A DNA stretch of 10,513 nt from Rikenellaceae bacterium (GTDB taxonomy: Bacteria > Bacteroidota > Bacteroidia > Bacteroidales > Rikenellaceae): contig JAITVB010000229.1 of NCBI GenBank assembly GCA_031286025.1, forward strand, positions 1 to 10,513. Direction: 5' to 3'. Positions 1 to 10,513 of the stretch are shown here, piece by piece. Positions within the stretch are counted from its first letter, which is position 1. Each line of letters starts with the position of its first letter. The notes beneath the pieces are model-generated. The model was not told the origin of the DNA. It saw only the letters and a program-made list of their open reading frames with translations, and did not search any database. The translations under genes were made by a program, and so were the position numbers.

Positions 1-169
1 CTTTCTTTTCGTCATAGGCAATCTGAACCGCCGAGTAGCCATCCTTCTCGATCGTTTTCAGTTGCGTAACTACACAGGGGCCGGCTTCGATAACAGTGCA
101 TGGCGTATTTTTGCCCTCAACACTGAAAACGGATGTCATTCCGATTTTTTTTCCGATGATTCCTGACAT
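1..169 (-). CDS. rplC: 50S ribosomal protein L3, N-terminal part (runs off the window edge)
   Basis: The first 56 residues of ribosomal protein L3 are visible. L3 is an early assembly protein of the large subunit that reaches towards the peptidyl transferase centre. The N-terminus reads [20 protein letters not shown], which is the conserved L3 opening (GxKxGMTxxF), followed by the usual [12 protein letters not shown] strand. The start is the ATG at 167-169, which leaves a 158-nt gap after rpsJ. The sequence just before it is A-rich with no Shine-Dalgarno motif. The gene lies downstream of rpsJ on the same strand, as expected where the S10 operon follows str. The rest of the gene lies beyond position 1. 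Confidence 0.95.
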
Positions 170-327
170 TATTGTCCTGTTTGCGTTTGTTTGTTAATTA
201 TTTGTTATGGTTGATATTTTCGTGCATTTTGTGTTGCCGGAAAGGTTCTCCGTTCAAGTCGTCGGTCGTTGTTGGCCGGATAGCCCGCACATTCCCGTCA
301 ACTCTCTCCCGCCGCCCCCGGCACCGG

Positions 328-633
328 TCACACTTTGATTTCCACTTCGACACCACTGGGGAGCTCAAGCTTCATCAGTGCGTCGATTGTCTTGGGGGTC
401 GAGCTGTAGATGTCCAAGATGCGCTTGAACGTCGACAACTGGAACTGTTCGCGCGATTTCTTGTTGACGAAAGTCGAACGGTTGACCGTGAAAATCTTCT
501 TGTTGGTGGGCAGGGGGATCGGACCGCTTACTACGGCGCCCGTACCCTTGACCGTCTTGACGATCTTTTCGGCGGATTTGTCCACCAGGTTGTGATCGTA
601 CGATTTGAGCTTGATTCTTATTTTCTGGCTCAT
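328..633 (-). CDS. rpsJ: 30S ribosomal protein S10
   Basis: This 101-residue protein is a full-length S10. S10 is part of the 30S head and in other bacteria also binds NusB in antitermination. It begins [20 protein letters not shown] and contains the diagnostic [11 protein letters not shown] loop and the [15 protein letters not shown] segment. The frame is open further upstream, but the ATG at 631-633 gives the family N-terminus and leaves a single base between it and the fusA stop codon. That spacing suggests translational coupling to fusA. No tuf gene separates fusA and rpsJ, which is typical of Bacteroidota. Confidence 0.97.
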
Positions 634-634
634 A

Positions 635-2746
635 TTATTCCAATTCTTTAAATTTACCGCTTGATTTTTCGATGATCTCCCTGGCCAGGTTGGCGGGCAG
701 GTCGTCGAAGTTCGAGAACTCCATCGACGAGGTCGCACGACCCGAAGAGATGGTGCGCAGCACGGTCACGTAACCGAACATTTCGCTCAGGGGAACCTTG
801 GCTTTCACGACACGGGCGGTGCCTTTCGATTCCATTCCGGTGATCTGGCCGCGACGTTTGTTCAGGTCGCCGATGATGTCGCCCATGTTTTCTTCGGGCG
901 TTACCACTTCGACCGCCATGATCGGCTCCATGATCACCGAGCCGGCTTTGGGGGCCGCCTGGCGGAAACCGTTGCGGGCGCAGATTTCGAACGAGAGCGA
1001 GTCGGAGTCGACCGCGTGGAACGAACCGTCCTTGAGCACGACCTTGATCGCGTCGATCGGGAAACCGGCCAACGCGCCATTGGTCATCGCCGAGGCGAAA
1101 CCTTTTTGGATGGCGGGAATATACTCTTTCGGGATGTTGCCGCCCTTTACCTCGTCTACGAATTCGAGCCCGGCCTTGCCTTCTTCCGACGGCCCGAGCT
1201 CGAAGATGATGTCCGCGAACTTCCCGCGACCGCCGGTCTGCTTTTTGAACACCTCGCGGTGCTGAACGGTCTTGGTGAGCGCTTCCTTGTAGTTCACCTG
1301 CGGGGCGCCCTGGCTGATCTCCACGCCGAATTCGCGGCGCAGGCGGTCAACGATGATCTCCAAATGAAGCTCACCCATCCCGCTGATCACGGTTTGGCCC
1401 GTGTCTTCATTGGTCTTCACGGTGAACGTCGGATCCTCTTCCGACAACTTGTTCAGGGCGATGCCCAACTTGTCGAGGTCCTTCTGTGTTTTCGGTTCCA
1501 CCGCCAAACCGATCACCGGTTCGGGGAAAGTCATCGATTCGAGCACGATCGGCGCGTTTTCGGCGCAGAGCGTGTCGCCCGTGCGGATATCCTTGAAACC
1601 TACCGCACCGCAGATATCGCCGGCCAACACCACCTCCATCGGATTCTGCTTGTTGGCGTGCATCTGGTAGAGGCGGCTGATGCGTTCCTTTTTGCCCGAG
1701 CGGCTGTTGAGCACATACGATCCGGCGTCCAGTTTACCTGAGTAAACGCGGATGAAAGCCAAGCGACCGACGAACGGGTCGGTGGCGATTTTGAACGCCA
1801 GTGCGCAAAGCGGATCGGTTTCATTCGGCTTGCGGATCACTTCCTTCTCCGTATCGGGATCGGTGCCGACAACGGCCTCAATGTCCACGGGCGAAGGCAG
1901 GAAAGCCACTATATAGTCGAGCAGTTTCTGCACCCCTTTGTTCTTGAACGACGAACCGCAGAGCATCGGAACGATCTTCATCCGGTTCGTCGCCTTGCGG
2001 ATGGCGGTAAGCAATTCGTCGGGAGTGATCGAATCAGGGTCTTCGAAGAATTTTTCCATCAACGATTCGTCGACCGTGGCCACCTCCTCGATCAGACGGG
2101 CGCGGGCTTCGGCCGCTTCGGTCTGCATGGCGGCCGGAATTTCTTCGAGAGTAAAGTTGTCGCGTACGTTTTTGTCGTCGAAATAGACGATCGCCTGGTT
2201 ATAGATCAGGTCGACCAGTCCGGTGAACTTGTCTTCGGCGCCGATCGGAAGCACTACCGGCACAGCGTTTGCGCCGAGGCGTTCCTTGATCTGGCCGCAG
2301 ACGCCCTGAAAGTCGGCCCCCGTACGGTCCATCTTGTTGACGTAGCCGATGCGCGGTACATTGTACTTGTCGGCCTGACGCCACACGGTTTCGGACTGGG
2401 GCTCCACCCCGCCCACGGCACAGAACGTAGCCACGGCGCCGTCGAGCACGCGCAACGAACGCTCCACTTCGACCGTGAAGTCGACGTGGCCCGGGGTGTC
2501 GATCACATTAATCTGATACGTGCCGTCCTTGTAATTCCAAAAAGTGGTCGTTGCGGCCGATGTGATGGTAATCCCGCGTTCCTGTTCCTGGACCATCCAG
2601 TCCATCGTCGCAGCGCCTTCGTGCACCTCCCCTACCTTGTGCGTTTTCCCGGTATAAAAGAGGATGCGTTCAGAGGTGGTGGTTTTGCCGGCATCGATGT
2701 GAGCCATGATGCCGATGTTGCGAATCAATTTAAGATCTCTTGCCAT
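635..2746 (-). CDS. fusA: Elongation factor G
   Basis: This 703-residue translational GTPase moves tRNA and mRNA through the ribosome and, with RRF, recycles ribosomes. The G domain (about 1-285) has the P-loop AHIDAGKTT (15-23), switch I RGITITSA (57-64), DTPGH (83-87) with the catalytic His87, NKMD (137-140) and CGSS (263-266). Domain II spans about 305-400, III about 405-480, IV about 481-602 and V about 603-690. The domain IV tip His577 (GSFHAVDSD), which contacts the decoding site, is present. All GTPase residues are intact and the gene lies in str, so it is the canonical factor rather than the GTPase-deficient EF-G2 paralog known from Bacteroides. An AAGGAG motif lies 11 nt before the start. 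Confidence 0.98.
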
Positions 2747-2757
2747 TTTTCACCAAT

Positions 2758-2763
2758 CTCCTT
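2758..2763 (-). promoter_or_regulatory. Shine-Dalgarno-like site of fusA
   Basis: On the minus strand AAGGAG lies 11 nt upstream of the fusA ATG, between the rpsG stop (2766-2768) and fusA. The other ribosomal-protein starts here are preceded by A-rich sequence with no such motif, as is usual in Bacteroidota, so this is a local exception. Whether it acts in initiation is inference. Confidence 0.45.
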
Positions 2764-2765
2764 GC

Positions 2766-3242
2766 TTAGAACCTGAAATGGGCGAACGCCTTGTTGGCAT
2801 CGGCCATACGGTGCATTTCCTCCTTGCGTTTGAAAGCGGCGCCTTCTTCGTTATAAGCAGCCTGAATTTCGGCGGCCAGTTTTTCCGCCATCGAACGGCC
2901 CGCCCGCTTTCTCGCATAGAGAACCATGTTTTTCATGCTCAATGCAATCTTGCGCTCGGGGCGTACTTCCATCGGCACCTGGAACGTCGCACCGCCTACA
3001 CGGCGGGACTTCACTTCGACTTGCGGAGTGATGTTTTCGATCGCTTTTTTCCAGACGTCGAGGGGAGCCTTGTCTGCATCTTTCATCTTCTCGCCCACGA
3101 TGTCTATGGCGTCATAGAAAATCGTGTAGGCAATACTCTTCTTACCGTCCAGCATCAGGCTGTTCACAAACCTGGTTACAAGTACGTCTCCGAACTTGGG
3201 ATCTGGAAGTAGAATTCGCTTTTTAGGCTTCGCTTTTCTCAT
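2766..3242 (-). CDS. rpsG: 30S ribosomal protein S7
   Basis: This 158-residue protein is S7, which nucleates assembly of the 30S head by binding the 3' major domain of 16S rRNA and lines the E site. It begins [19 protein letters not shown], contains the rRNA-binding [17 protein letters not shown] segment in mid-protein, and ends [15 protein letters not shown]. That is the normal short C-terminus, without the E. coli K-12 extension. It lies between rpsL (63 nt upstream) and fusA (19 nt downstream) and is presumably co-transcribed with them. Confidence 0.98.
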
Positions 3243-3305
3243 AATTGTGTACTGACGTTTGTCGCTTTGTTAAGGTTTATCTTTTGCAAACTCCTCGCGG
3301 ATGTT

Positions 3306-3704
3306 TTACTTCTTCTTGGCGGGTGCAGCACCGGGCTTGGGCCGTTTGGTGCCGTATTTCGAGCGGCGTTGGTTGCGACCGTCGACGCCGGCGGCGTCGA
3401 GCGCTCCGCGCACGAGGTGGTAACGCACCCCCGGCAGGTCTTTCACACGGCCGCCGCGCACCAACACGATCGAGTGCTCCTGCAGGTTGTGGCCTTCGCC
3501 CGGGATATAGGCGTTCACCTCTTTCTGGTTGGTCAATCTCACGCGGGCCACTTTACGCATGGCCGAGTTGGGTTTTTTCGGCGTGGTGGTGTATACGCGC
3601 ACGCACACCCCGCGACGTTGCGGGCAGGCGTCAAGGGCGGGCGACTTGCTCTTGTCGACCGGAGCAGTCCGTCCTTTACGCACCAATTGTTGAATCGTAG
3701 GCAT
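3306..3704 (-). CDS. rpsL: 30S ribosomal protein S12
   Basis: This 132-residue protein is S12, which sits at the decoding centre and controls tRNA selection accuracy. It opens [13 protein letters not shown] and contains [21 protein letters not shown] and [13 protein letters not shown]. Lys43 and Lys88, the positions where streptomycin-resistance substitutions usually occur, are both wild type. Asp89, the position methylthiolated by RimO in E. coli, is also present. The C-terminal tail (PGAAPAKKK) is a few residues longer than in E. coli. It is the first gene of the operon, with an untranslated leader of about 165 nt. Confidence 0.98.
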
Positions 3705-3870
3705 TTTTACTACTGCTTTTTAACTTTTAAACTGCTTTTAACTGGTTTCGTCCCGCAAACGAGTCCCTTTTCCCGGCTCCTCCTCTCTTCGAAGAGTGCC
3801 TTTTCAAAGGTTCCCCCGGTTGCGCGACCCCTTGTTTTACCTGGGAATTGCACACACTTGGGCAAAATTC
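3705..3870 (-). other. Predicted 5' untranslated leader of the rpsL operon
   Basis: This stretch lies between the predicted transcription start (about 3870) and rpsL and contains no convincing small gene. It holds a perfect 12-bp palindrome CTCTTCGAAGAG (3785-3796) and next to it CCTTTTCAAAGG (3799-3810), whose outer 4-5 bases can pair. The last 30 nt before rpsL are A-rich. No known ribosomal-protein leader motif was recognised. Confidence 0.4.
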
Positions 3871-3906
3871 GGACTGCAAAGATATCTATTTTTTTCTTAC
3901 AATCAA
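3870..3906 (-). promoter_or_regulatory. Bacteroidota-type promoter of the rpsL-rpsG-fusA-rpsJ-rplC operon
   Basis: On the minus strand a perfect -7 box TATCTTTG (3877-3884) lies 19 nt after a TTG (3904-3906). This fits the established Bacteroides primary-sigma promoter (TTG, 19-21 nt, TAnnTTTG). The predicted start is near 3870. A run of A residues lies between the boxes. It precedes rpsL in the correct orientation. Confidence 0.8.
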
Positions 3907-3988
3907 CACATTGTCCCGATTTTTTGTGTTTTTACGGTGAGTTTGAGCGTTTTCCCATGGGGATGGCTGCAATTTTCCGGCCGCCGAC

Positions 3989-4020
3989 AAAAAAATCCCC
4001 GGTGCGGAACGCACCGGGGA
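3989..4020 (-). terminator. Rho-independent terminator downstream of the GlsB-like gene
   Basis: Positions 3996-4006 pair perfectly with 4010-4020 (11 bp, CCCCGGTGCG arm) around a GAA loop. On the minus strand the stem is followed at once by seven U residues (3995-3989). It lies 48 nt after the stop of the GlsB/YeaQ-like gene and just upstream of the rpsL promoter, so it insulates the two units. Confidence 0.9.
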
Positions 4021-4068
4021 GCAGGTTGCGGATAACCCTTACAGGGAAAAGACACGGCCCTTCGATCG

Positions 4069-4317
4069 CTACCGTTTCCGGAAAAGCGAAACCACCGCCA
4101 ACAGCACGATCGCCCCGACGGTCGATGAAACCAGGTTGCCGACGATGCTGCCGCTTTCGACCCAGATACCCATCAGGCCGAACAGCCAACCGCCGAGCAC
4201 CCCGCCGATAATCCCCACGACCAGGTCGACCCAGAAACCGAAACCTTTGCCTTGGGTCAGTTTCCCGGCCACGGAACCGGCCACCAGGCCGATCAGGATG
4301 TACCAAATGAAATTCAT
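4069..4317 (-). CDS. GlsB/YeaQ/YmgE family small membrane protein
   Basis: This is an 82-residue, very hydrophobic, glycine-rich protein with three predicted membrane segments (about 3-20, 28-48 and 58-79) and a basic C-terminus FRKR. The pattern MNFIWYILIGLVAGSVAGKL, then GFWVDLVVGIIGGVLGGWLF, matches the transglycosylase-associated (GlsB/YeaQ/YmgE) family at its usual length. Members are induced in general stress responses, but no biochemical activity is established. It is a single-gene unit with its own terminator. No clear TTG/TAnnTTTG promoter was found upstream. It is divergent from the plus-strand lipoprotein gene. Confidence 0.9.
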   Translation of the reverse strand: MNFIWYILIGLVAGSVAGKLTQGKGFGFWVDLVVGIIGGVLGGWLFGLMGIWVESGSIVGNLVSSTVGAIVLLAVVSLFRKR

Positions 4318-4706
4318 AGTCTTTTGTCGTTATTCAGGTGAGAAATTGTAGAAAACCATACCCTTGCCTGCGATACATCTTTGGTGTGTAAAATAATGTA
4401 TAAAAACGCCTTATGATGAAAATCAGCCGTCATGCCATGAACCTTTTCCCCTGCCGCTGCCTGCTTAACCGGCGGAGCGGACTTATCCACCGCCTTTCCA
4501 CTTGTCAAAAAATGTGCCGCATCGACCGGATCGGCGACCTCGAGTTGCTTTCCCGCCGCGCAGCCTTGCGGATGACCAGAGCGGGCGAAGGGCGGCGTTG
4601 TCGTTGGTGTTGGCCGGAAAATACGAAAAATATTGTAAAAATCGCCCGGAACAGGCAAAAAAGTACAGCCGGCCGTCTTTCGGCCCGTGAAACGTTGCTG
4701 CGGCCG
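4318..4706. other. Divergent intergenic region between the GlsB-like gene and the lipoprotein
   Basis: This stretch must hold the 5' regions of both divergent genes. On the plus strand CATCTTTG (4376-4383) resembles a -7 box, but the nearest matching TTG is 27 nt away, so no promoter is called. The plus-strand frame of the lipoprotein stays open back to 4413, with ATGs at 4413 and 4572. The encoded residues (rich in Arg, Cys and Trp) do not look like a secreted or structured protein. Part of it may therefore be 5' UTR or decayed sequence. Confidence 0.4.
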
Positions 4707-5153
4707 GTGTGGCGGTTGGCCGTCGTTTCGCTGTTGGGCTGCGGAGTATGGATGTTGGCCGGGTGCATGCGCACGGTCTATGTCCCTATCCGTTCGCACG
4801 AAACGGTGATCGACACCGTGACCGCGGCACTGCCCGACAGCACCCTGTTCCGCGCCCTGTTCGAGTGCGACAGCAACAACCGGGTAATCCTCCGTCAACT
4901 TTCCGAATATAAAGGTAAGCAGGCCGACCAGGCGGTGAACATCGACGGCGGCCGGATAGAAGTCGTTACCCGTTGGCAGACGAAGTACATCGACCGCATC
5001 CACGAGATGCGCGACACGGTGACCATTGTCGAAGCCCGTCCGGCGGTCAAGCCCGAACGCCACATTCCCCGCTTCTTCCGGTGGTGCTTTGGGGTCGCCT
5101 TGGGAACGGTGCTTTTCGTTGTCTCCAAGCTGGTTATGGTTTTCAGGCGGTGA
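4707..5153 (+). CDS. Lipoprotein with C-terminal membrane segment (spanin-like architecture)
   Basis: No named family was recognised, but the layout is clear. There is a hydrophobic leader RLAVVSLLGCGVWMLAGC with lipobox LAGC. After Cys comes an extracytoplasmic stretch of about 100 residues (TVYVPIRSHETVIDTV, ALPDSTLFRALFECDSNN, RWQTKYIDRIHEMRDTVTIV). A C-terminal membrane helix (FGVALGTVLFVVSKLVMVF) follows, ending in FRR. The start is uncertain. GTG 4707 (148 aa) or TTG 4695 gives a normal lipoprotein signal, while ATG 4572 or 4413 adds 45-98 residues before it. Lipid anchor, periplasmic rod and C-terminal helix are the parts of unimolecular spanins. Related small proteins occur in Bacteroidota prophage-like modules beside amidases, but no lysis gene is seen here. 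It is the only plus-strand gene. Confidence 0.6.
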   Translation: MWRLAVVSLLGCGVWMLAGCMRTVYVPIRSHETVIDTVTAALPDSTLFRALFECDSNNRVILRQLSEYKGKQADQAVNIDGGRIEVVTRWQTKYIDRIHEMRDTVTIVEARPAVKPERHIPRFFRWCFGVALGTVLFVVSKLVMVFRR

Positions 5154-5586
5154 TCCCGATATTGGAAAGAAGCGTGGTGGAATACCGGCCCGCCTCTCTC
5201 GAAAATCTCAGAAGGACAATCGGAGGACAGGGGCAAAAAATTTTATTAAACGGTTTAAGATAACTTTAGTTCATAGAAAATGACTTCGATCATGTAATCT
5301 AAAGCAAGAAAAAGGGAAATTTTATCAATAACACTTATTTTCAATGGTTTAAACAAAATTCAAATCGAGAAAATAGATGATTAACTTATCCTGAACCTGT
5401 CAAAAGACCGGGCGACTTATGAAAGTCGCCCGGTCTGTCCAAAGTAAAATACTCATAAACACCCGTTACGTTCTGTCGGCTCCGGAAAGCCCGGAGGGAC
5501 GGCCGGCAGGGCAACGTAAGCATCGTCTCTCCCCCTTTCGGCCGGAACCCCCGCCCAACGGCCCCTTCCGGAATTTTTTCAGCGGA
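5154..5586. other. Gene-free region between the lipoprotein and the PspC/PadR operon
   Basis: No supported gene was found on either strand. The stretch at 5235-5400 is strongly AT-rich compared with its flanks and contains the 8-bp palindrome GTTTAAAC. A strong hairpin follows (5405-5436, listed separately). Smaller inverted repeats are CTCCGG/CCGGAG (5480-5485 and 5491-5496) and CCGGAA/TTCCGG (5542-5547 and 5566-5571). The last is followed by six T residues, so it could be a weak plus-strand terminator. Confidence 0.45.
5405..5436 (-). terminator. Strong hairpin, probable terminator of the PspC/PadR operon
   Basis: Positions 5405-5418 pair perfectly with 5423-5436 (14 bp, GACCGGGCGACTT arm) around the loop ATGA. 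On the minus strand the stem runs into UUUUG, a short U-tract. It lies about 150 nt after the last gene of the minus-strand operon. On the plus strand no T-run follows, although the hairpin could still serve the converging lipoprotein transcript. Confidence 0.65.
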
Positions 5587-5949
5587 TTACCGGCTGCCGC
5601 GACTGAAGAGGACGCCGAGGCCGGCAGTGACGAATACCAAGGGGAAGATCACTTTTTCGAACGGGATGTCGACCCCGAAAACATTGGTCACGAGGAATCC
5701 CGCCCCGACCACCGTCACGATGCCCCCCGCCACCCAACGGTGCAAGGTGAGCAGGTACAGGCCGATCACGGTCAACAGCATTTCCCACGAGAAGAACACG
5801 TCGTACACGCGGTAGGAGATCACATCAAAGTTTTTGAGCAACCAGACGACCCCCACCAGGATCAGGATTCCTCCCAGGAAAATGTTGCGCGAGCTGATGA
5901 TTCCGCCCTTTTGGCCCAAGGCCGGTTGATTGTTGTTTACCACTTCCAT
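5587..5949 (-). CDS. LiaF/LiaI-like (DUF5668-type) membrane protein
   Basis: This 120-residue protein has a short polar N-terminus (MEVVNNNQPALGQKGG) and four predicted membrane segments at about 23-40, 54-70, 71-90 and 98-116. The repeated pattern of a Gly-rich helix, then V-W-L-L-K-N-F-D, then an F/W-rich helix fits the LiaI-LiaF-like transmembrane region found next to PspC proteins in many Bacteroidota. LiaF in Firmicutes restrains a cell-envelope stress response. That role here is inference. It is the last gene of the operon, starting 18 nt after the PspC gene. A probable terminator follows at 5405-5436. Confidence 0.8.
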   Translation of the reverse strand: MEVVNNNQPALGQKGGIISSRNIFLGGILILVGVVWLLKNFDVISYRVYDVFFSWEMLLTVIGLYLLTLHRWVAGGIVTVVGAGFLVTNVFGVDIPFEKVIFPLVFVTAGLGVLFSRGSR

Positions 5950-5967
5950 GTTGTGTTTGTTTAAGGG

Positions 5968-7446
5968 TTATTCGGTGATGTACTCGTCATAGGAAAGCCC
6001 CTGCAACACTTTGTATTCCAAGCTGTCGGGCAGGTAGAGGCTGAAATCGATGCGTGTGTGGTGAATCCCCTCGTCGAGCTTTTCATAAGGCGAGACGAAA
6101 AGCGTGTCGCCGCGGAGCTCGTAAGGTACGGCAAGTCCCTTGACCCGGTTGCGTTCGATATCTTTATCGATGCCTTCGTAAGACTTTTTGATCCGCAGGG
6201 TCGGCGCGGAGTAATCGCTTCCGGTCAGCGGATGGAACTTTACCGAATAGAACCGGGTGCTCACGGCCCATGCAGCCGAGTCGGCCGGGGCGATGTAAAG
6301 CACTTTGCCGGCAAACGGGAAGTCGGCGGTTTCCTCCACGTTCGGGCGCGGTTTTTCGTGGTAATCGGAGATCCCGTCTTTCCACGACGTGCGGATCTGG
6401 TCAAAGTCCTTGATCAGGATAACCGTACCGAAGACCACCACCAAAATCCAGATCACGCCCAACGTCGACACAAAACCCTTGCTGTTGCGGAAGTCGTAGA
6501 CCGTATGGAAGAGCATATAGGCCAACAGCAACAGCGGAATCACCACGGCAACGGCCACCAACACGCCCAAGGTAACCGGAAGCGGACCATCCAAAAACAT
6601 CACCGGAAAACTGTCGGGCCGTATCAAGGTAAAGACTGCCCCGACGATGATTCCTATAACACTCAACATCAGACTGATGCCGATAATCGCCGCAATGAAT
6701 TTTATGAAAAAGAGGACGACGCGTCCCAGTACGGTGACGATTTCCGAAAAAATCGAGGCGTTGCGGTAGCCGCGTTCCGGGTTTTTGCTCCAGTTGCGCA
6801 CGTTGTTTTCGATCGCCGAAAATTCTTCGCGGAACGTGCGTTCGATCTTTCCGGCAGTGATCTTTTCACCGCGCATTTCGAGTTTCTGGCGCGGGGTTTT
6901 TGCCTTCGGGATCGCAATCAACAGGATAAAATAAAGCATAAAGAACGCCCCGGTCAGCGTGCCGAGCAAACTGTGGAACCCCCAACCGTGGAAGAAAGGG
7001 GCGGTCACCACCTGGATCACGAGCGGCGAGAACATCGCCAACCGCACCATCACCGGATCGGTGCCGAAATAAGCGGCCAACCCGGCGCACACGCCCCCGA
7101 TCTTTGCATTGTCGGGATCACGGTAGAGGCGGCGTGGAATTTTCTCGGCTTCAGACGCAGACGGATCATCGGTATCGGCGGGGATGCCCTCGGCGATGTC
7201 TTCGGGACGACCGAGTTGTTCGAGCGCCTGGCTGATCAATTCGAGACCGACCACCACAGTCGATTCCTGTTGTGAAAGGACGATCTCGGCGATGCGCGTT
7301 TCGATGTCGCCGATGATTTCGCCGCCGTCGGGGGTCGAAGCATAGCGCTTCCTAAGTTGGTCGAGGTAGTCGTCCAATCGGGCATAGGCTTCGTCGTCGA
7401 GACGGAATGAGATGCCCGCGATGCTTACGTTTACTATTTCTTTCAT
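5968..7446 (-). CDS. PspC domain-containing multi-pass membrane protein (large)
   Basis: This 492-residue protein has an N-terminal soluble helical domain (about 1-95, with FRLDDEAYARLDDYLDQLRK and the LGRPEDIAEG turn). A PspC domain follows (about 104-182: RRLYRDPDNAKIGGVCAGLAAYFGTD, then membrane helices and IAIPKAK). Four more membrane helices lie at about 236-275, 288-312 and 326-346, and a C-terminal region (about 350-492) is probably extracytoplasmic. PspC proteins sense or transmit envelope stress in other bacteria. No enzymatic residues were recognised. It starts 2 nt after the PadR stop codon, so coupling is likely. The N-terminal and PspC parts are clearly related to the 177-residue protein at 7800-8333. 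The C-terminal domain is unrecognised. Confidence 0.9.
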   Translation of the reverse strand: MKEIVNVSIAGISFRLDDEAYARLDDYLDQLRKRYASTPDGGEIIGDIETRIAEIVLSQQESTVVVGLELISQALEQLGRPEDIAEGIPADTDDPSASEAEKIPRRLYRDPDNAKIGGVCAGLAAYFGTDPVMVRLAMFSPLVIQVVTAPFFHGWGFHSLLGTLTGAFFMLYFILLIAIPKAKTPRQKLEMRGEKITAGKIERTFREEFSAIENNVRNWSKNPERGYRNASIFSEIVTVLGRVVLFFIKFIAAIIGISLMLSVIGIIVGAVFTLIRPDSFPVMFLDGPLPVTLGVLVAVAVVIPLLLLAYMLFHTVYDFRNSKGFVSTLGVIWILVVVFGTVILIKDFDQIRTSWKDGISDYHEKPRPNVEETADFPFAGKVLYIAPADSAAWAVSTRFYSVKFHPLTGSDYSAPTLRIKKSYEGIDKDIERNRVKGLAVPYELRGDTLFVSPYEKLDEGIHHTRIDFSLYLPDSLEYKVLQGLSYDEYITE

Positions 7447-7448
7447 CG

Positions 7449-7778
7449 CTATGCTCCTTTACGAATGTGTTCGATCTGTGCTACGAATTCCATCCAGGCC
7501 TGGTCGATTTCACCCAGGAACTTGCGACCGGCGTCGGTCAGCGTGTAGTACTTGCGGGGAGGGCCCTGCGGCGACTCTTCCCAACGGTAGGAAAGCAAGC
7601 CTTGGTTTTTTTGGCGGGTCAGCAGAGGATAAAGCGTCCCTTCGACCACGATCATCTCGGCTTCCTTCAGTTCGCCGATGATCTCCGACGCGTAGGCGTC
7701 GTTGCGCGAGAGGATCGACAGGATGCAATATTCGAGAATCCCTTTGCGCATCTGTGCCTTAATGTTGTCAATATTCAT
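7449..7778 (-). CDS. PadR family transcriptional regulator
   Basis: This 109-residue winged-helix protein has the PadR hallmarks. An N-terminal helix MRKGILEYCILSILS is followed by the recognition region YASEIIGELKEAEMIVVEGT, the LYPLLTRQKNQGLL motif, the wing GPPRKYYTLTDAGR (72-85), and a short C-terminal helix for dimerisation. Family members are usually repressors that bind inverted repeats in their own promoters and are released by ligands or stress. It lies between two related PspC genes, 21 nt after the first and 2 nt before the second. A likely target is the 10-bp inverted repeat at 8394-8422 in the operon promoter. The inducer is unknown. Confidence 0.95.
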   Translation of the reverse strand: MNIDNIKAQMRKGILEYCILSILSRNDAYASEIIGELKEAEMIVVEGTLYPLLTRQKNQGLLSYRWEESPQGPPRKYYTLTDAGRKFLGEIDQAWMEFVAQIEHIRKGA

Positions 7779-7799
7779 AACCTGTGTTTTATGATGTGA

Positions 7800-8333
7800 T
7801 TATTCTCTTCGGTTGTCGTAACGGCCATATCCGCCCACTTGCGGGGCGCGCGGGATCACAATCCACATAATGATGTAGACCCACAGGCTGAGCCCGCCCG
7901 GAAAAAAGAGCAGCACACAGATCACCCTCACGAGAGTAATGTCGATGTCCATGTAACGGGCCAACCCCGAGCAGACGCCACCAACGATCCTGTCGTCGAT
8001 CGAGCGATAGAGCTTGTGCGGTCGGTCTTCGCTCCGGGGTTCTTCGCCGCGGGTATAGTCGCGCGCCTTGTGGTAGTGGTCGCCGAACTCTTCGGGACGG
8101 CCGATCACGGCAATCGCCCGGTTGACGGTCGTCGCGTTGACCACCTGCGCTCGCAACGACAGGTTGGCGGTAAAGATTTCGGCCATGCGGCCTTCGACAT
8201 CTTCCATCACCTCGTCGCGATCAGCGGTCAAGCGGTCGGCGATGTCGTCCAGATAACCCTTCAGGATGGCGTAAGCGTCCTCGTCCACGATGAACGGCGA
8301 GCCCCCCAGGTTGATGTTGGTCGTCTTTTTCAT
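7800..8333 (-). CDS. PspC domain-containing protein (small)
   Basis: This 177-residue protein is the first gene of the operon. Residues 1-95 form a soluble helical domain (MKKTTNINLGGSPFIVDEDA, then DEVMEDVEGRMAEIF and IGRPEEFGDHY). Residues 105-163 form a PspC domain (HKLYRSIDDRIVGGVCSGLA, then one or two membrane helices, FFPGGLSLWVYIIMWIVIPR). A short polar tail follows (GGYGRYDNRRE). It is a shortened paralog of the large PspC protein, with the same two-domain start but without the extra helices and C-terminal domain. A role in envelope-stress sensing is inferred from the family. Confidence 0.92.
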   Translation of the reverse strand: MKKTTNINLGGSPFIVDEDAYAILKGYLDDIADRLTADRDEVMEDVEGRMAEIFTANLSLRAQVVNATTVNRAIAVIGRPEEFGDHYHKARDYTRGEEPRSEDRPHKLYRSIDDRIVGGVCSGLARYMDIDITLVRVICVLLFFPGGLSLWVYIIMWIVIPRAPQVGGYGRYDNRRE

Positions 8334-8393
8334 ATCTTACGTTTTTAGTATTGTTTTGAAAACTTGTTCCGGCTTATACCTATTAGTGAATTT

Positions 8394-8422
8394 TATCTTT
8401 GTACTTTAACAATACAAAGATA
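8394..8422. promoter_or_regulatory. Perfect inverted repeat over the operon promoter, candidate PadR operator
   Basis: Arms TATCTTTGTA (8394-8403) and TACAAAGATA (8413-8422) are exact reverse complements separated by 9 nt. The upstream arm contains the -7 box and the downstream arm covers the predicted start and early transcript, so a bound dimer would block RNA polymerase. The TGTA-N9-TACA core resembles the dyads bound by PadR-family repressors. The operon contains a padR gene, which fits autoregulation. Binding is inferred. Confidence 0.6.
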
Positions 8423-8446
8423 TGTAAATATATTATTACTTTGCAA
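8408..8446 (-). promoter_or_regulatory. Bacteroidota-type promoter of the PspC-PadR-PspC-LiaF operon
   Basis: On the minus strand TATCTTTG (8415-8422) lies 21 nt after a TTG (8444-8446). The spacing is within the 19-21 nt accepted for Bacteroides promoters. The predicted start is near 8408, giving a 5' UTR of about 75 nt before the small PspC gene. Confidence 0.75.
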
Positions 8447-8627
8447 TACATGGTAGATGTTTTTTATGATTATTTTTATGCAAATATGTTTTTGCACTGA
8501 TAATCAAAATTTTATCCGGTGTTTTTTTGTTTTCGGAGGAGGGGGGAGGCGACTACAAGGATAAACAAGTGGAGAACACGTCAAAATCGCCCCCAAGAAC
8601 GGATATAGGAAATGAAATGGAGCGTTC
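8447..8627. other. AT-rich intergenic stretch upstream of the PspC operon
   Basis: This stretch lies between the operon promoter and the hairpin that follows the next minus-strand gene. It begins very AT-rich and includes a T7 run followed by a purine-rich GGAGGAGGGGGGAGG tract (about 8536-8550). No gene, RNA or promoter was recognised on either strand. Confidence 0.4.
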
Positions 8628-8656
8628 CGCCGGCGTCAAGGCGAATGACGCCGGCG
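8628..8656. terminator. GC-rich hairpin after the frame-broken secreted-protein gene
   Basis: Positions 8628-8638 (CGCCGGCGTCA) pair perfectly with 8646-8656 around a 7-nt loop. It lies 14 nt past the stop codon at 8671, where a minus-strand terminator would be expected. On the minus strand, however, no U-run follows. On the plus strand a T5 run begins only 6 nt after the stem. It may be a factor-assisted or bidirectional terminator. Confidence 0.5.
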
Positions 8657-8670
8657 ATTGTCTTTTTAGC

Positions 8671-9132
8671 TTAATCCGCATTAATAATATGATTATGCCG
8701 ATAAGAAATGTCAGTATTATATTTTTTATCGGAGTAATCAGAATCCAACAACAGCTTAATGTTCGGAACAAGACTCATCGGAACATTTTTATAAGACTCA
8801 ACCTTCCCATATTTAACATCTATTTCGGTCGTTAATTCCATATCTTTATACGTTGTCACTTCTTTCAAGTTCGTTATCCGATACTCATTGGCAATAACGT
8901 TCGTCCTTGCTCTACTTACATCAAATTCACTCTCTTGGGTTATAACGATATTGTCGTTGTCATCATACTCTATCATACTCAACTCGAAATGAGACAGGAG
9001 TTTGGTGTCTTTATTAAAGAAACAAACTATTTGTGTCTTTGAACGGTCTTTTATCGATACCGATGTGAATACACGACAATTATCCCGAATCCCAAGGTAT
9101 CGCAATGTCTTTGTGCGGCCGCCCGTAAACAT
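8671..9132 (-). pseudogene. C-terminal half of the frame-broken secreted protein
   Basis: From the first internal ATG (9130-9132) this frame encodes 153 residues, MFTGGRTKTLRYLGIRDNC to SYRHNHIINAD, but the same frame is open upstream to the TA tract and reads as good protein there. An independent start at 9132 is therefore unlikely. The sequence is rich in beta-type strands and Asp/Asn/Lys (KTQIVCFFNKDTKLLSHFEL, IEYDDNDNIVITQESEF, ITNLKEVTTYKDMEL). No membrane helix, catalytic motif or known family was recognised. Base composition is AT-rich compared with the PspC operon next door. Confidence 0.5.
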
Positions 9133-9277
9133 TGAATTGTAGTATCGGGAGGCCCAACTTATATTATAATGAACAGAAGTGATAAGTTGCTTCTCAAAGC
9201 TTGTCTCATCTTGTACATTGGTACCTCCTGGATAAGTATAAATCCCCGCTACCGGGCGTCTAGTCTCTCTATTCCCT

Positions 9278-9757
9278 TTATATATATACCAAAGAAAGGT
9301 TCCCTTCTCCGCTATCCACGCTACTATTATTTTTCTTTATGACGTATTTATATGCAAGGTCATTTGTGGTCGCATAGTGATAGAATGGGAGGCTGACAGT
9401 ATATTTCTTATATAATGCCTCTGTATCGACAGGGCCAACGACAACAATTTCATCCATGTCATAAGTGCGGGTTAAAATGATGTCACACGCCATTTCCCGC
9501 TTGACTTCATCGGTTATCAAAACCGACTCCCTGCCATACCCGACAAAATAGGCGGCGATAGTATCCTGCAAATTTATTTTATCGATAGGGATAAGGGCAA
9601 CCCCGACGGAATCTGTCGCCGCTATAATCTTGTTATTTATTGAAATATAGGCATAACCTACCGGGTCGTTATTATCAAATTTCACGCTGACGGTCAAGTT
9701 CTGCGCATGGAGCGCAGTTGTCGTAATAGCTAAAGTTAAAGCGATTAGGAACTTCAT
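9278..9757 (-). CDS. N-terminal half: signal peptide plus carboxypeptidase-regulatory-like domain
   Basis: As the sequence stands, 159 residues would be made. MKFLIALTLAITTTALHAQ is a clear Sec signal peptide (cleavage near residues 18-19). Residues about 20-97 look like a carboxypeptidase-regulatory-like beta sandwich (LTVSVKFDNNDPVGYAYISI, then AATDSVGVALIPI and CDIILTRTY). Next comes DMDEIVVVGP (100-109), resembling the TonB-box region that follows such a domain in SusC-type receptors, though no barrel follows. The frame is open upstream to an ATG at 9883, but only the ATG at 9755-9757 puts the signal peptide at the N-terminus. The last codons before the stop are GTA TAT ATA TAA, within the TA tract. 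Confidence 0.7.
   Translation of the reverse strand: MKFLIALTLAITTTALHAQNLTVSVKFDNNDPVGYAYISINNKIIAATDSVGVALIPIDKINLQDTIAAYFVGYGRESVLITDEVKREMACDIILTRTYDMDEIVVVGPVDTEALYKKYTVSLPFYHYATTNDLAYKYVIKKNNSSVDSGEGNLSLVYI
9279..9288. repeat. (TA)5 dinucleotide tract inside coding sequence
   Basis: Five TA units stand exactly where the secreted-protein frame meets its premature stop (9278-9280). Six units would keep the frame open (GTA TAT ATA TAT AAA GGG). Short dinucleotide tracts can change length by slipped-strand mispairing, although five units is short for a fast switch. Confidence 0.7.
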
Positions 9758-9809
9758 AATAATCTTTTTGTTTAAAAACTCTCTTCTTAAAATTGATTCG
9801 TCATAAACA

Positions 9810-9876
9810 ACAAGGCTGCCTAATGGAAATATCATATAATCAAAACTATATCGAATATCGCCAAAGGCAACCTTGT
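9810..9876 (-). other. Long-loop inverted repeat between the precursor and the secreted-protein gene
   Basis: Arms 9810-9820 and 9866-9876 can form an 11-bp RNA stem on the minus strand (ACAAGGTTGCC with GGCAGCCTTGT, one G-U pair) around a 45-nt AT-rich loop. It lies entirely in the 142-nt gap between the two genes. There is no U-run after it. It could protect the precursor mRNA end or attenuate readthrough; either role is inference. Confidence 0.45.
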
Positions 9877-9899
9877 CGTACAACTTTCAGGAGTAAAAG

Positions 9900-10091
9900 T
9901 TACGAAGGACAATCTGTCGACAGGGCGCAAGAGGTTGGTAATACGCAACACGTAAATCTCGATTGGCAATCTCCGAGGAACGTCGTAAAACCACCGCCTT
10001 GCACATTGGCCTGGTCCTTTTTACTCAGAACAGAAACCACTTCTTTTTTCAAAGATAGTTTTGTCAGCTTTTTTTTGTTTTTCTTTTCCAT
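9900..10091 (-). CDS. Class I lanthipeptide-like RiPP precursor
   Basis: This 63-residue peptide has a basic leader (1-34) and a Cys/Ser/Thr-rich core (35-63). The leader KLTKLSLKKEVVSVLSKK, then DQANVQGGG, matches the Bacteroidota class I lanthipeptide leader pattern (LxLxK, hydrophobic spaced residues, Leu-Ser, then Gly-Gly). Cleavage after the glycines (32-34) would release a 29-residue core, FTTFLGDCQSRFTCCVLPTS and then CALSTDCPS. It has five Cys (42, 48, 49, 55, 61) and nine Ser/Thr, the raw material for lanthionine rings. The odd Cys count leaves at least one free, disulfide-bonded or unmodified. The gene lies between a HipA-family gene and the frame-broken secreted protein, all on the minus strand. 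No LanB, LanC, protease or exporter is visible. Alternatives are another GG-leader secreted peptide or an unmodified bacteriocin. No clear promoter was found in the gap after hipA. Confidence 0.8.
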   Translation of the reverse strand: MEKKNKKKLTKLSLKKEVVSVLSKKDQANVQGGGFTTFLGDCQSRFTCCVLPTSCALSTDCPS

Positions 10092-10198
10092 TGTTTGGAG
10101 GGTTAAATGGTTAAAAAATAAAAAAATTAAACTATCGGGGTAAGATTCACGCTGTTTACCACATTGGCTGCAATTACATATAGGGAATTAAACGTCAT

Positions 10199-10513
10199 CT
10201 ACTGTGCCTTAACGTTGAATCCGTTAACCTTATTCTTTATATATTCTATGATTTCTGTTGCCTTTGGCAGCGAAAGTCCGACCTCACCTGCAGCGGTAAG
10301 CATGTCTTTTACAGAAGGTTCGCCGTTGCCGCTCACAGTCGTTGTGTGGAAACCGTTGAAACCATCGCTCGGTAAAAGGTCGTATGCGGGAGAGAGCCGC
10401 CACTCGCCGCCGATGAGTTGGAACGAGAAATTCTTGGCATGGTCGTCACGGTTTTTGATCAGCACGTTGAACACCATCTGCCGAAAAAGGGCGTAAACCT
10501 GTTCCATGTTTTT
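10199..10513 (-). CDS. HipA-family toxin kinase, C-terminal part (runs off the window edge)
   Basis: The last 104 residues of a HipA-type Ser/Thr kinase are visible. In E. coli, HipA phosphorylates glutamyl-tRNA synthetase and induces persistence; the target here is unknown. Numbering from the Met at 10505-10507, FNVLIKNRDDHAKNFSF (13-29) is the catalytic loop, with Asp21 and Asn26 matching E. coli Asp309 and Asn314. RLSPAYDLLP contains the metal-binding Asp43 (E. coli Asp332). The tail (FHTTTVSGNGEPSVKDML, GLSLPKATEIIEYI) is the usual helical end of the short Bacteroidota type. That Met is internal: the frame is open to the window edge, and most of the kinase lies beyond it. Any HipB antitoxin would also be outside. 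Confidence 0.88.
   Translation of the reverse strand, partial: KNMEQVYALFRQMVFNVLIKNRDDHAKNFSFQLIGGEWRLSPAYDLLPSDGFNGFHTTTVSGNGEPSVKDMLTAAGEVGLSLPKATEIIEYIKNKVNGFNVKAQ

Follow-up and report, generated by a model that had tools for sequence, protein, structure and literature searches.

Genes at the contig end

The window, by which we mean the whole stretch of DNA analysed (10,513 bp, the entire contig C106 of genome G000), carries on its minus strand a short gene (9900..10091, read from 10091 to 9900) that starts with ATG and encodes a LanA-like precursor of 63 aa, as indicated by the open reading frame, a match to the leader model NF038153 and database relatives. Read on the plus strand, the same interval contains a stop codon and no such peptide. 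Upstream on the same strand, after a gap of 107 bp, lies the C-terminal part of a HipA-like protein (10199..10513, minus strand; PF07804, 78.5 bits), which is truncated where the contig stops, 422 bp upstream of the precursor gene.

An accessory protein gene (8671..9757, minus strand) starts 142 bp past the precursor stop. Its product begins, as judged by eye, with a signal-peptide-like sequence, and it is read in two frames, the first stopping at 9278 and the second at 8671. The frameshift falls at a TA dinucleotide run near 9279-9288, a possible slippage site or else a sequencing event. Relatives of this protein are intact (P0004, 359 aa, 77%; P0005, 363 aa, 62%); residues 1-166 and 154-359 of P0004 match the two parts of the gene, and no second lesion was seen.

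The end of the contig is AT-rich (8341..10513; 39.5% GC versus 55% in 1-8340) and is probably an acquired segment. It stops just beyond the accessory gene, past which the open reading frames, assigned by eye to PspC-like proteins, a PadR-like regulator, fusA, rpsG and rpsL, read as ordinary chromosome. About 14 bp past the accessory gene stop, a strong hairpin (8628..8656; z -2.71) with a T-run on the plus strand may mark a transcript end. Terminator-like sites are not in excess in the region (one found versus 1.8 expected in shuffles), promoter-like sites do not exceed shuffles, and Rfam and tRNA searches returned nothing. Positions 8300-10513 hold no long flanking repeats, only two families of short direct repeats with two copies each and six inverted pairs that measure 12-19 nt. 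The AT-rich stretch and the frameshifted accessory gene fit an acquired cluster that is partly decayed or cut off.

Leader and core of the precursor

Residues 1-33 (9993..10091, minus strand) form the leader. The NCBIfam class I lanthipeptide leader model NF038153 matches residues 4-33 with 25.0 bits (cut-off 22), and a scan of the genome with this model recovered the precursor at 26 bits, as the sole such match and with no second precursor. The model scores the leader alone, not the chemistry. The leader reads L12xL14xK16x5L22 and ends in Gly-Gly at G32-G33. The core, residues 34-63 (9903..9992, minus strand), holds five Cys, at positions 42, 48, 49, 55 and 61, and nine Ser/Thr, and its Cys and Ser/Thr are kept in close relatives as detailed below. 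The original prediction had noted LxLxK, GGG at 32-34, the five Cys with the adjacent Cys48-Cys49 pair and nine Ser/Thr among the 29 residues that follow GGG; all of this is correct, and the leader-model search that it proposed gave the above-threshold match just described. Its core length of 29 residues is right as a count after GGG, but the core may have 30 residues (34-63), because P0007, P0009 and P0010 have only two Gly (GG-WTTT) and the cut would then follow Gly33. The FTCC stretch of the core may resemble the lacticin 481 group.

Family scans covered the peptide and its three neighboring ORF pieces. On the peptide, NF038158 stayed below its cut-off and Pfam returned no match at E 10. 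A precomputed tag, PF28317, is attached to the window peptide, P0002 and P0003 and is absent from P0007 and P0008; the Pfam library scans did not return it, and our literature search found neither a mention of PF28317 nor a paper naming NF038153.

Chance was assessed by redrawing the AT-rich end (2060 bp) 2000 times under a first-order Markov model. Of these sequences, 31 held an ORF that loosely fits the leader pattern, and one also had at least four Cys after GG. Database relatives with conserved Cys are stronger support for a real peptide than this test.

Conservation of the core in close relatives

A search with the peptide returned P0002 (E 9.8e-20) and P0003 (E 1.2e-13), and a profile of four sequences retrieved, with E of at most 0.01, 22 proteins that include the four query rows. 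Ten sequences were aligned in all, and the four closest sequences (the window peptide, P0002, P0003 and P0008) were picked for a count of core positions. All five Cys are kept in the four, as are T36, T37, S/T44, T47 and S58; the other four of the nine Ser/Thr positions vary. Among these four sequences 13 of 29 core columns are invariant versus 12 of 35 leader columns, so that the core is no less conserved than the leader. The comparison of homologous cores that had been proposed as a check therefore came out as conservation, with five of five Cys and five of nine Ser/Thr kept in the closest relatives.

Over the ten rows, C42, C48, C49 and C61 are nearly invariant, a set that does not include Cys55, and P0011 lacks most of the core. 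P0008 misses NF038153 (20.8 bits versus 22), and P0003 alone matches the Pfam entry Bacteroid_pep, at 17.7 bits, below the cut-off of 25. A search of genome contigs yielded one weak relative (L001, 43% identity); as the query was limited to exact words from the window peptide, it may have overlooked peptides of the P0003 kind. Viral contigs gave no match to the peptide alignment or to P0004, and plasmids gave none to P0004 or P0003, the two queries used there.

A related precursor in a complete cluster

When 268 genomes of the same family were searched with a profile of the close relatives, one other strong match was obtained, in G223 (E 3.6e-11). This precursor, P0007, is a protein of 74 aa on contig C142 that is labelled "class I lanthipeptide [Rikenella sp.]". 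Its gene stands in a row that reads LanC, LanA, accessory protein, LanB N, LanB C, C39-peptidase exporter and a weakly HlyD-like protein (22.4 bits versus a cut-off of 208.65). LanC was identified with PF05147 (133.8 bits) and the two pieces of LanB with PF04738 (LanB N, 483 bits) and PF14028 (LanB C, 210.5 bits). The whole locus (L011, 9523-19058) is a complete class I cluster with a split LanB, and its LanC has about 250 extra N-terminal residues.

P0007 resembles the window peptide in its leader and in the start of its core, GG..TT.xG.C....TCC....C. The two have T36, T37, G40, C42, T47, C48, C49, C55, S58 and C61 in common, and in both loci LanA is followed by a gene whose product belongs to one broad accessory family. 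They differ in that P0007 has a longer, more Cys-rich C terminus and is enclosed by a complete LanC/LanB/exporter set, none of which was seen around the window peptide.

The peptide is quite probably a LanA, the precursor of a class I lanthipeptide, of the LxLxKx5L/Gly-Gly type known from Bacteroidota, and it lies in an AT-rich, probably acquired stretch of a genome that most likely belongs to the Rikenellaceae. This reading is well supported because the leader model matches, the Cys and Ser/Thr are conserved, and a relative from the same family of bacteria sits in a cluster complete with LanB and LanC. Judged from sequence, the precursor would be an additional member of an already known kind of LanA. 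Its modification, rings, export and activity are predicted by analogy. As in the G223 cluster, a two-piece LanB would read the leader, glutamylate core Ser/Thr with Glu-tRNA and eliminate the adducts to Dha/Dhb; a LanC would join Dha/Dhb to Cys as thioether rings; and a C39-peptidase exporter would cut after Gly-Gly and export the peptide. The ring partners are likely to be Ser/Thr 36, 37, 44, 47 and 58 together with the five Cys, since these positions are kept in the closest relatives.

Search for lan enzymes in the genome

The genome that holds the window has 1.718 Mb in 261 contigs, is 77.5% complete and is probably a metagenome assembly. The original prediction had stated that no LanB, LanC, protease or exporter lies in the window and had called for a search of the full genome. 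Inspection of the ORFs by eye agreed with the first point, and scans of the 77.5% complete genome, window included, returned no match for LanB (PF04738 and the G223-type LanB as query), LanB C (PF14028, which found no match in any control either), LanC (PF05147) or the C39 peptidase (PF03412, which matched in 8 of 14 control genomes). In one run, PF04738 had matches in G223, G349 and G507 and none in G000, which shows that the model works; it matched none of the 14 controls. However, about a fifth of the genome is missing, so that zero matches do not show absence of lan enzymes. The prediction had named as grounds for its own rejection a missing leader match together with missing lanthionine enzymes, or homologs with unconserved Cys/Ser/Thr positions. 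Enzymes were indeed not found, but the leader match is present and the core positions are conserved.

Leaders and LanB in related genomes

At E 0.01, NF038153 matched four of the 268 family genomes (G000, G173, G186 and G223), in all but G173 over the cut-off, and the G223 LanB as query also matched four (G173, G186, G223 and G229), which do not include G000. The LanB match in G173 holds a stop, and that in G229 is partial (residues 6-154 of 713). Leader and LanB matches coincide in three genomes (hypergeometric p 5e-6, on an assumption of independent genomes that does not hold). LanB is present in two of the three genomes that pass the leader cut-off; the remaining one is G000.

G186 has two loci on different contigs. 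At L014 (1495-5061), near the contig start, a LanA-like Cys-rich frame lies beside LanC and a protein that looks by eye like a glycosyltransferase; at L040 (1199-7355), a LanA-like open frame directly precedes a split LanB, an exporter and an HlyD-like gene, and no ATG was seen before its leader match. Weak family matches in G012, G081, G096, G145 and G214 (E 0.003-0.007) were not counted as relatives, and the surroundings of those in G012 and G145 were read. These loci (L012 and L013) contain repeated proteins that are about 300 aa long and have PLELE or PIELE at the C terminus, and they share proteins of 879 aa and 509 aa; L013 further has a 123-aa ORF of the Gly-Gly type and a stretch that shows 59% identity with the C39 exporter of G223. 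They probably represent some other exported-peptide system.

Among 393 genomes of the order, a sample drawn from a larger group, seven others had weak matches (G349, G356, G395, G458, G507, G540 and G632). LanC or LanB was present in the fetched flank in four of the seven (G356, G395, G507 and G540), LanB was on another contig in G349 and G507, and PF04738 found no LanB in G458, G540 and G632.

In G349 (Bacteroidales UBA6680), contig C116 has the one LanB match, together with LanC and seven LanA-like genes, and contig C104 has six more LanA-like genes with near-identical leaders. The C104 peptides are identical to those of UBA6680 contig DKJY01000114.1, the contig of L001. No lan enzyme was found on C104 in the 30 of 50.3 kb that were read, 5.9 kb of them toward the nearer contig end. 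The two loci (L083, 4575-10902, and L035, 5910-8153) together hold 13 precursors for one LanB found, and the seven-gene array combines one leader type with varied Cys-rich cores. Such an arrangement suggests a combinatorial way of making lanthipeptides, possibly with modification in trans. G349 is a case from the order in which precursors lie away from their enzymes, unless a link is concealed by the assembly or by the stretch of C104 that was left unread.

The accessory gene

The order LanA-accessory gene is common to the window and G223. The G223 accessory protein is 28% identical to that of the window over 134 residues, with PF13715 below its cut-off. Matches to the accessory family occur in 19 of the 268 genomes, only one of which has LanB; the match in G182 is the start of a protein of 1115 aa. 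We read 15 neighborhoods around homologues of the accessory gene, in 13 of these 19 genomes; the set includes contig C25 of G000 and leaves out the matches in G181, G185, G194, G226 and G253. They contained no LanB, LanC or LanB C and gave generic ABC ATPase matches only. In a tree of 12 rows, in which P0004 and P0005 represent the broken gene of the window and which has long branches and three open forks, the window's type stands apart from the G223 cluster copy. We had considered the gene order as proof of a remnant of a G223-type cluster; this was rejected on the neighborhoods without lan enzymes and a tree that shows no pairing. Given the spread of the family, the neighborhoods and the tree, the order is a hint, suggestive only.

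Where the partner enzymes may be

The original prediction was of an orphan class I precursor. The class I assignment stands, on the leader, the core and the G223 cluster; the orphan part is no more than a possibility, since the zero count of lan enzymes comes from a 77.5% complete genome and the contig end is 422 bp away. Slightly more likely than not, partner enzymes exist, either past the contig end or in other sequence that the assembly lacks.

A cluster that was cut by the assembly is quite conceivable, if somewhat short of probable. The enzymes would then lie upstream of the HipA-like fragment, past the contig end, or in sequence absent from the incomplete genome. The nearness of the contig end, the incompleteness of the genome and its 261 contigs speak for this, as does the position of LanC directly upstream of LanA in G223. 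However, the gene directly upstream of the precursor is HipA-like rather than LanC, and the G223 LanB and exporter lie downstream of LanA, on the side that is sequenced here and lacks them.

Alternatively, the precursor may be the survivor of a lost cluster, a LanA relic left by deletion of LanB, LanC and the exporter and now decaying; we hold this as a tentative possibility, on the doubtful side. No lan enzyme was found in the genome at hand, and hence none downstream of the precursor, a side that is sequenced here and that in G223 holds LanB and the exporter. The adjoining accessory gene is frameshifted, and the AT-rich segment ends just past it. Nevertheless, LanA itself is intact with every conserved core residue present, the accessory gene has a single lesion, at a TA run where slippage or a sequencing event may account for it, and about a fifth of the genome is lacking.

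That the precursor is a satellite modified in trans by LanB and LanC encoded elsewhere in the same genome is rather improbable. The order offers a precedent in the G349 arrays on C116 and C104, although 20 kb of C104 are unread and contig breaks may hide linkage there, and in the window's own genome neither LanB or LanC nor a second NF038153 precursor was found. As the separate G349 arrays suggest that modification in trans is possible in the order, we also considered, and think unlikely, that the window peptide, P0002, P0003 and P0008 form a distinct small five-Cys lanthipeptide family, GGGFTTxGNCxTxFTCC...SCxLSxxC, carried on acquired AT-rich segments, in some hosts apart from its enzymes, and modified in trans. 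The four peptides have a tightly held core, in contrast with the varied cores of the G349 arrays.

Finally, a radical-SAM-modified peptide of the TIGR04149 type in place of a lanthipeptide is very improbable: TIGR04149 matches the window peptide (19.2 bits), P0010 just passes its cut-off (25.3 versus 25) and a distant match, P0024, bears the database name "TIGR04149 family rSAM-modified RiPP", but the window peptide is under the cut-off of 25, the TIGR04148 maturase had no match at E 1e-5 in its own, incomplete genome, and the nearest relative with known surroundings sits beside LanB and LanC, with no radical SAM enzyme among the eight G223 proteins scanned.

Comparison with known systems

Little is on record about class I lanthipeptides in Bacteroidales, and the accessible text of a 2023 mining study reports no LanB in the Bacteroidales genomes screened (PMC10352776). 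Among the genomes examined here, one labelled Rikenella carries a complete LanB/LanC cluster and others of the order have both LanB and LanC; in addition, a small family of cores keeps its Cys at fixed positions. Together these supply a specified peptide and a specified set of enzymes with which ring formation could be tested. A precursor apart from its enzymes also bears on the question whether genes of this sort act in trans or survive as relics.

As described in the part of the source available to us, class I LanAs of Bacteroidetes have an LxLxKx5L leader motif and Gly-Gly, often with C39 proteases (PMC7268733). The window peptide resembles these NF038153-type precursors in its leader motif, its Gly-Gly end and its Cys- and Ser/Thr-rich core, and it differs from those described there in that no LanB, LanC or C39 exporter was seen with it. 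Class I lanthipeptides of Chryseobacterium and Runella have been made in E. coli, where, according to the accessible portion of that report, their LanB/LanC sets dehydrate and cyclize the cores (PMC9993889). They represent the same Bacteroidota class I system, and the likeness to the window peptide is drawn at the level of the system. The same applies to the pinensins, which are presented in the consulted sections of PMC7268733 as Bacteroidota class I lanthipeptides with a split LanB, as in G223.
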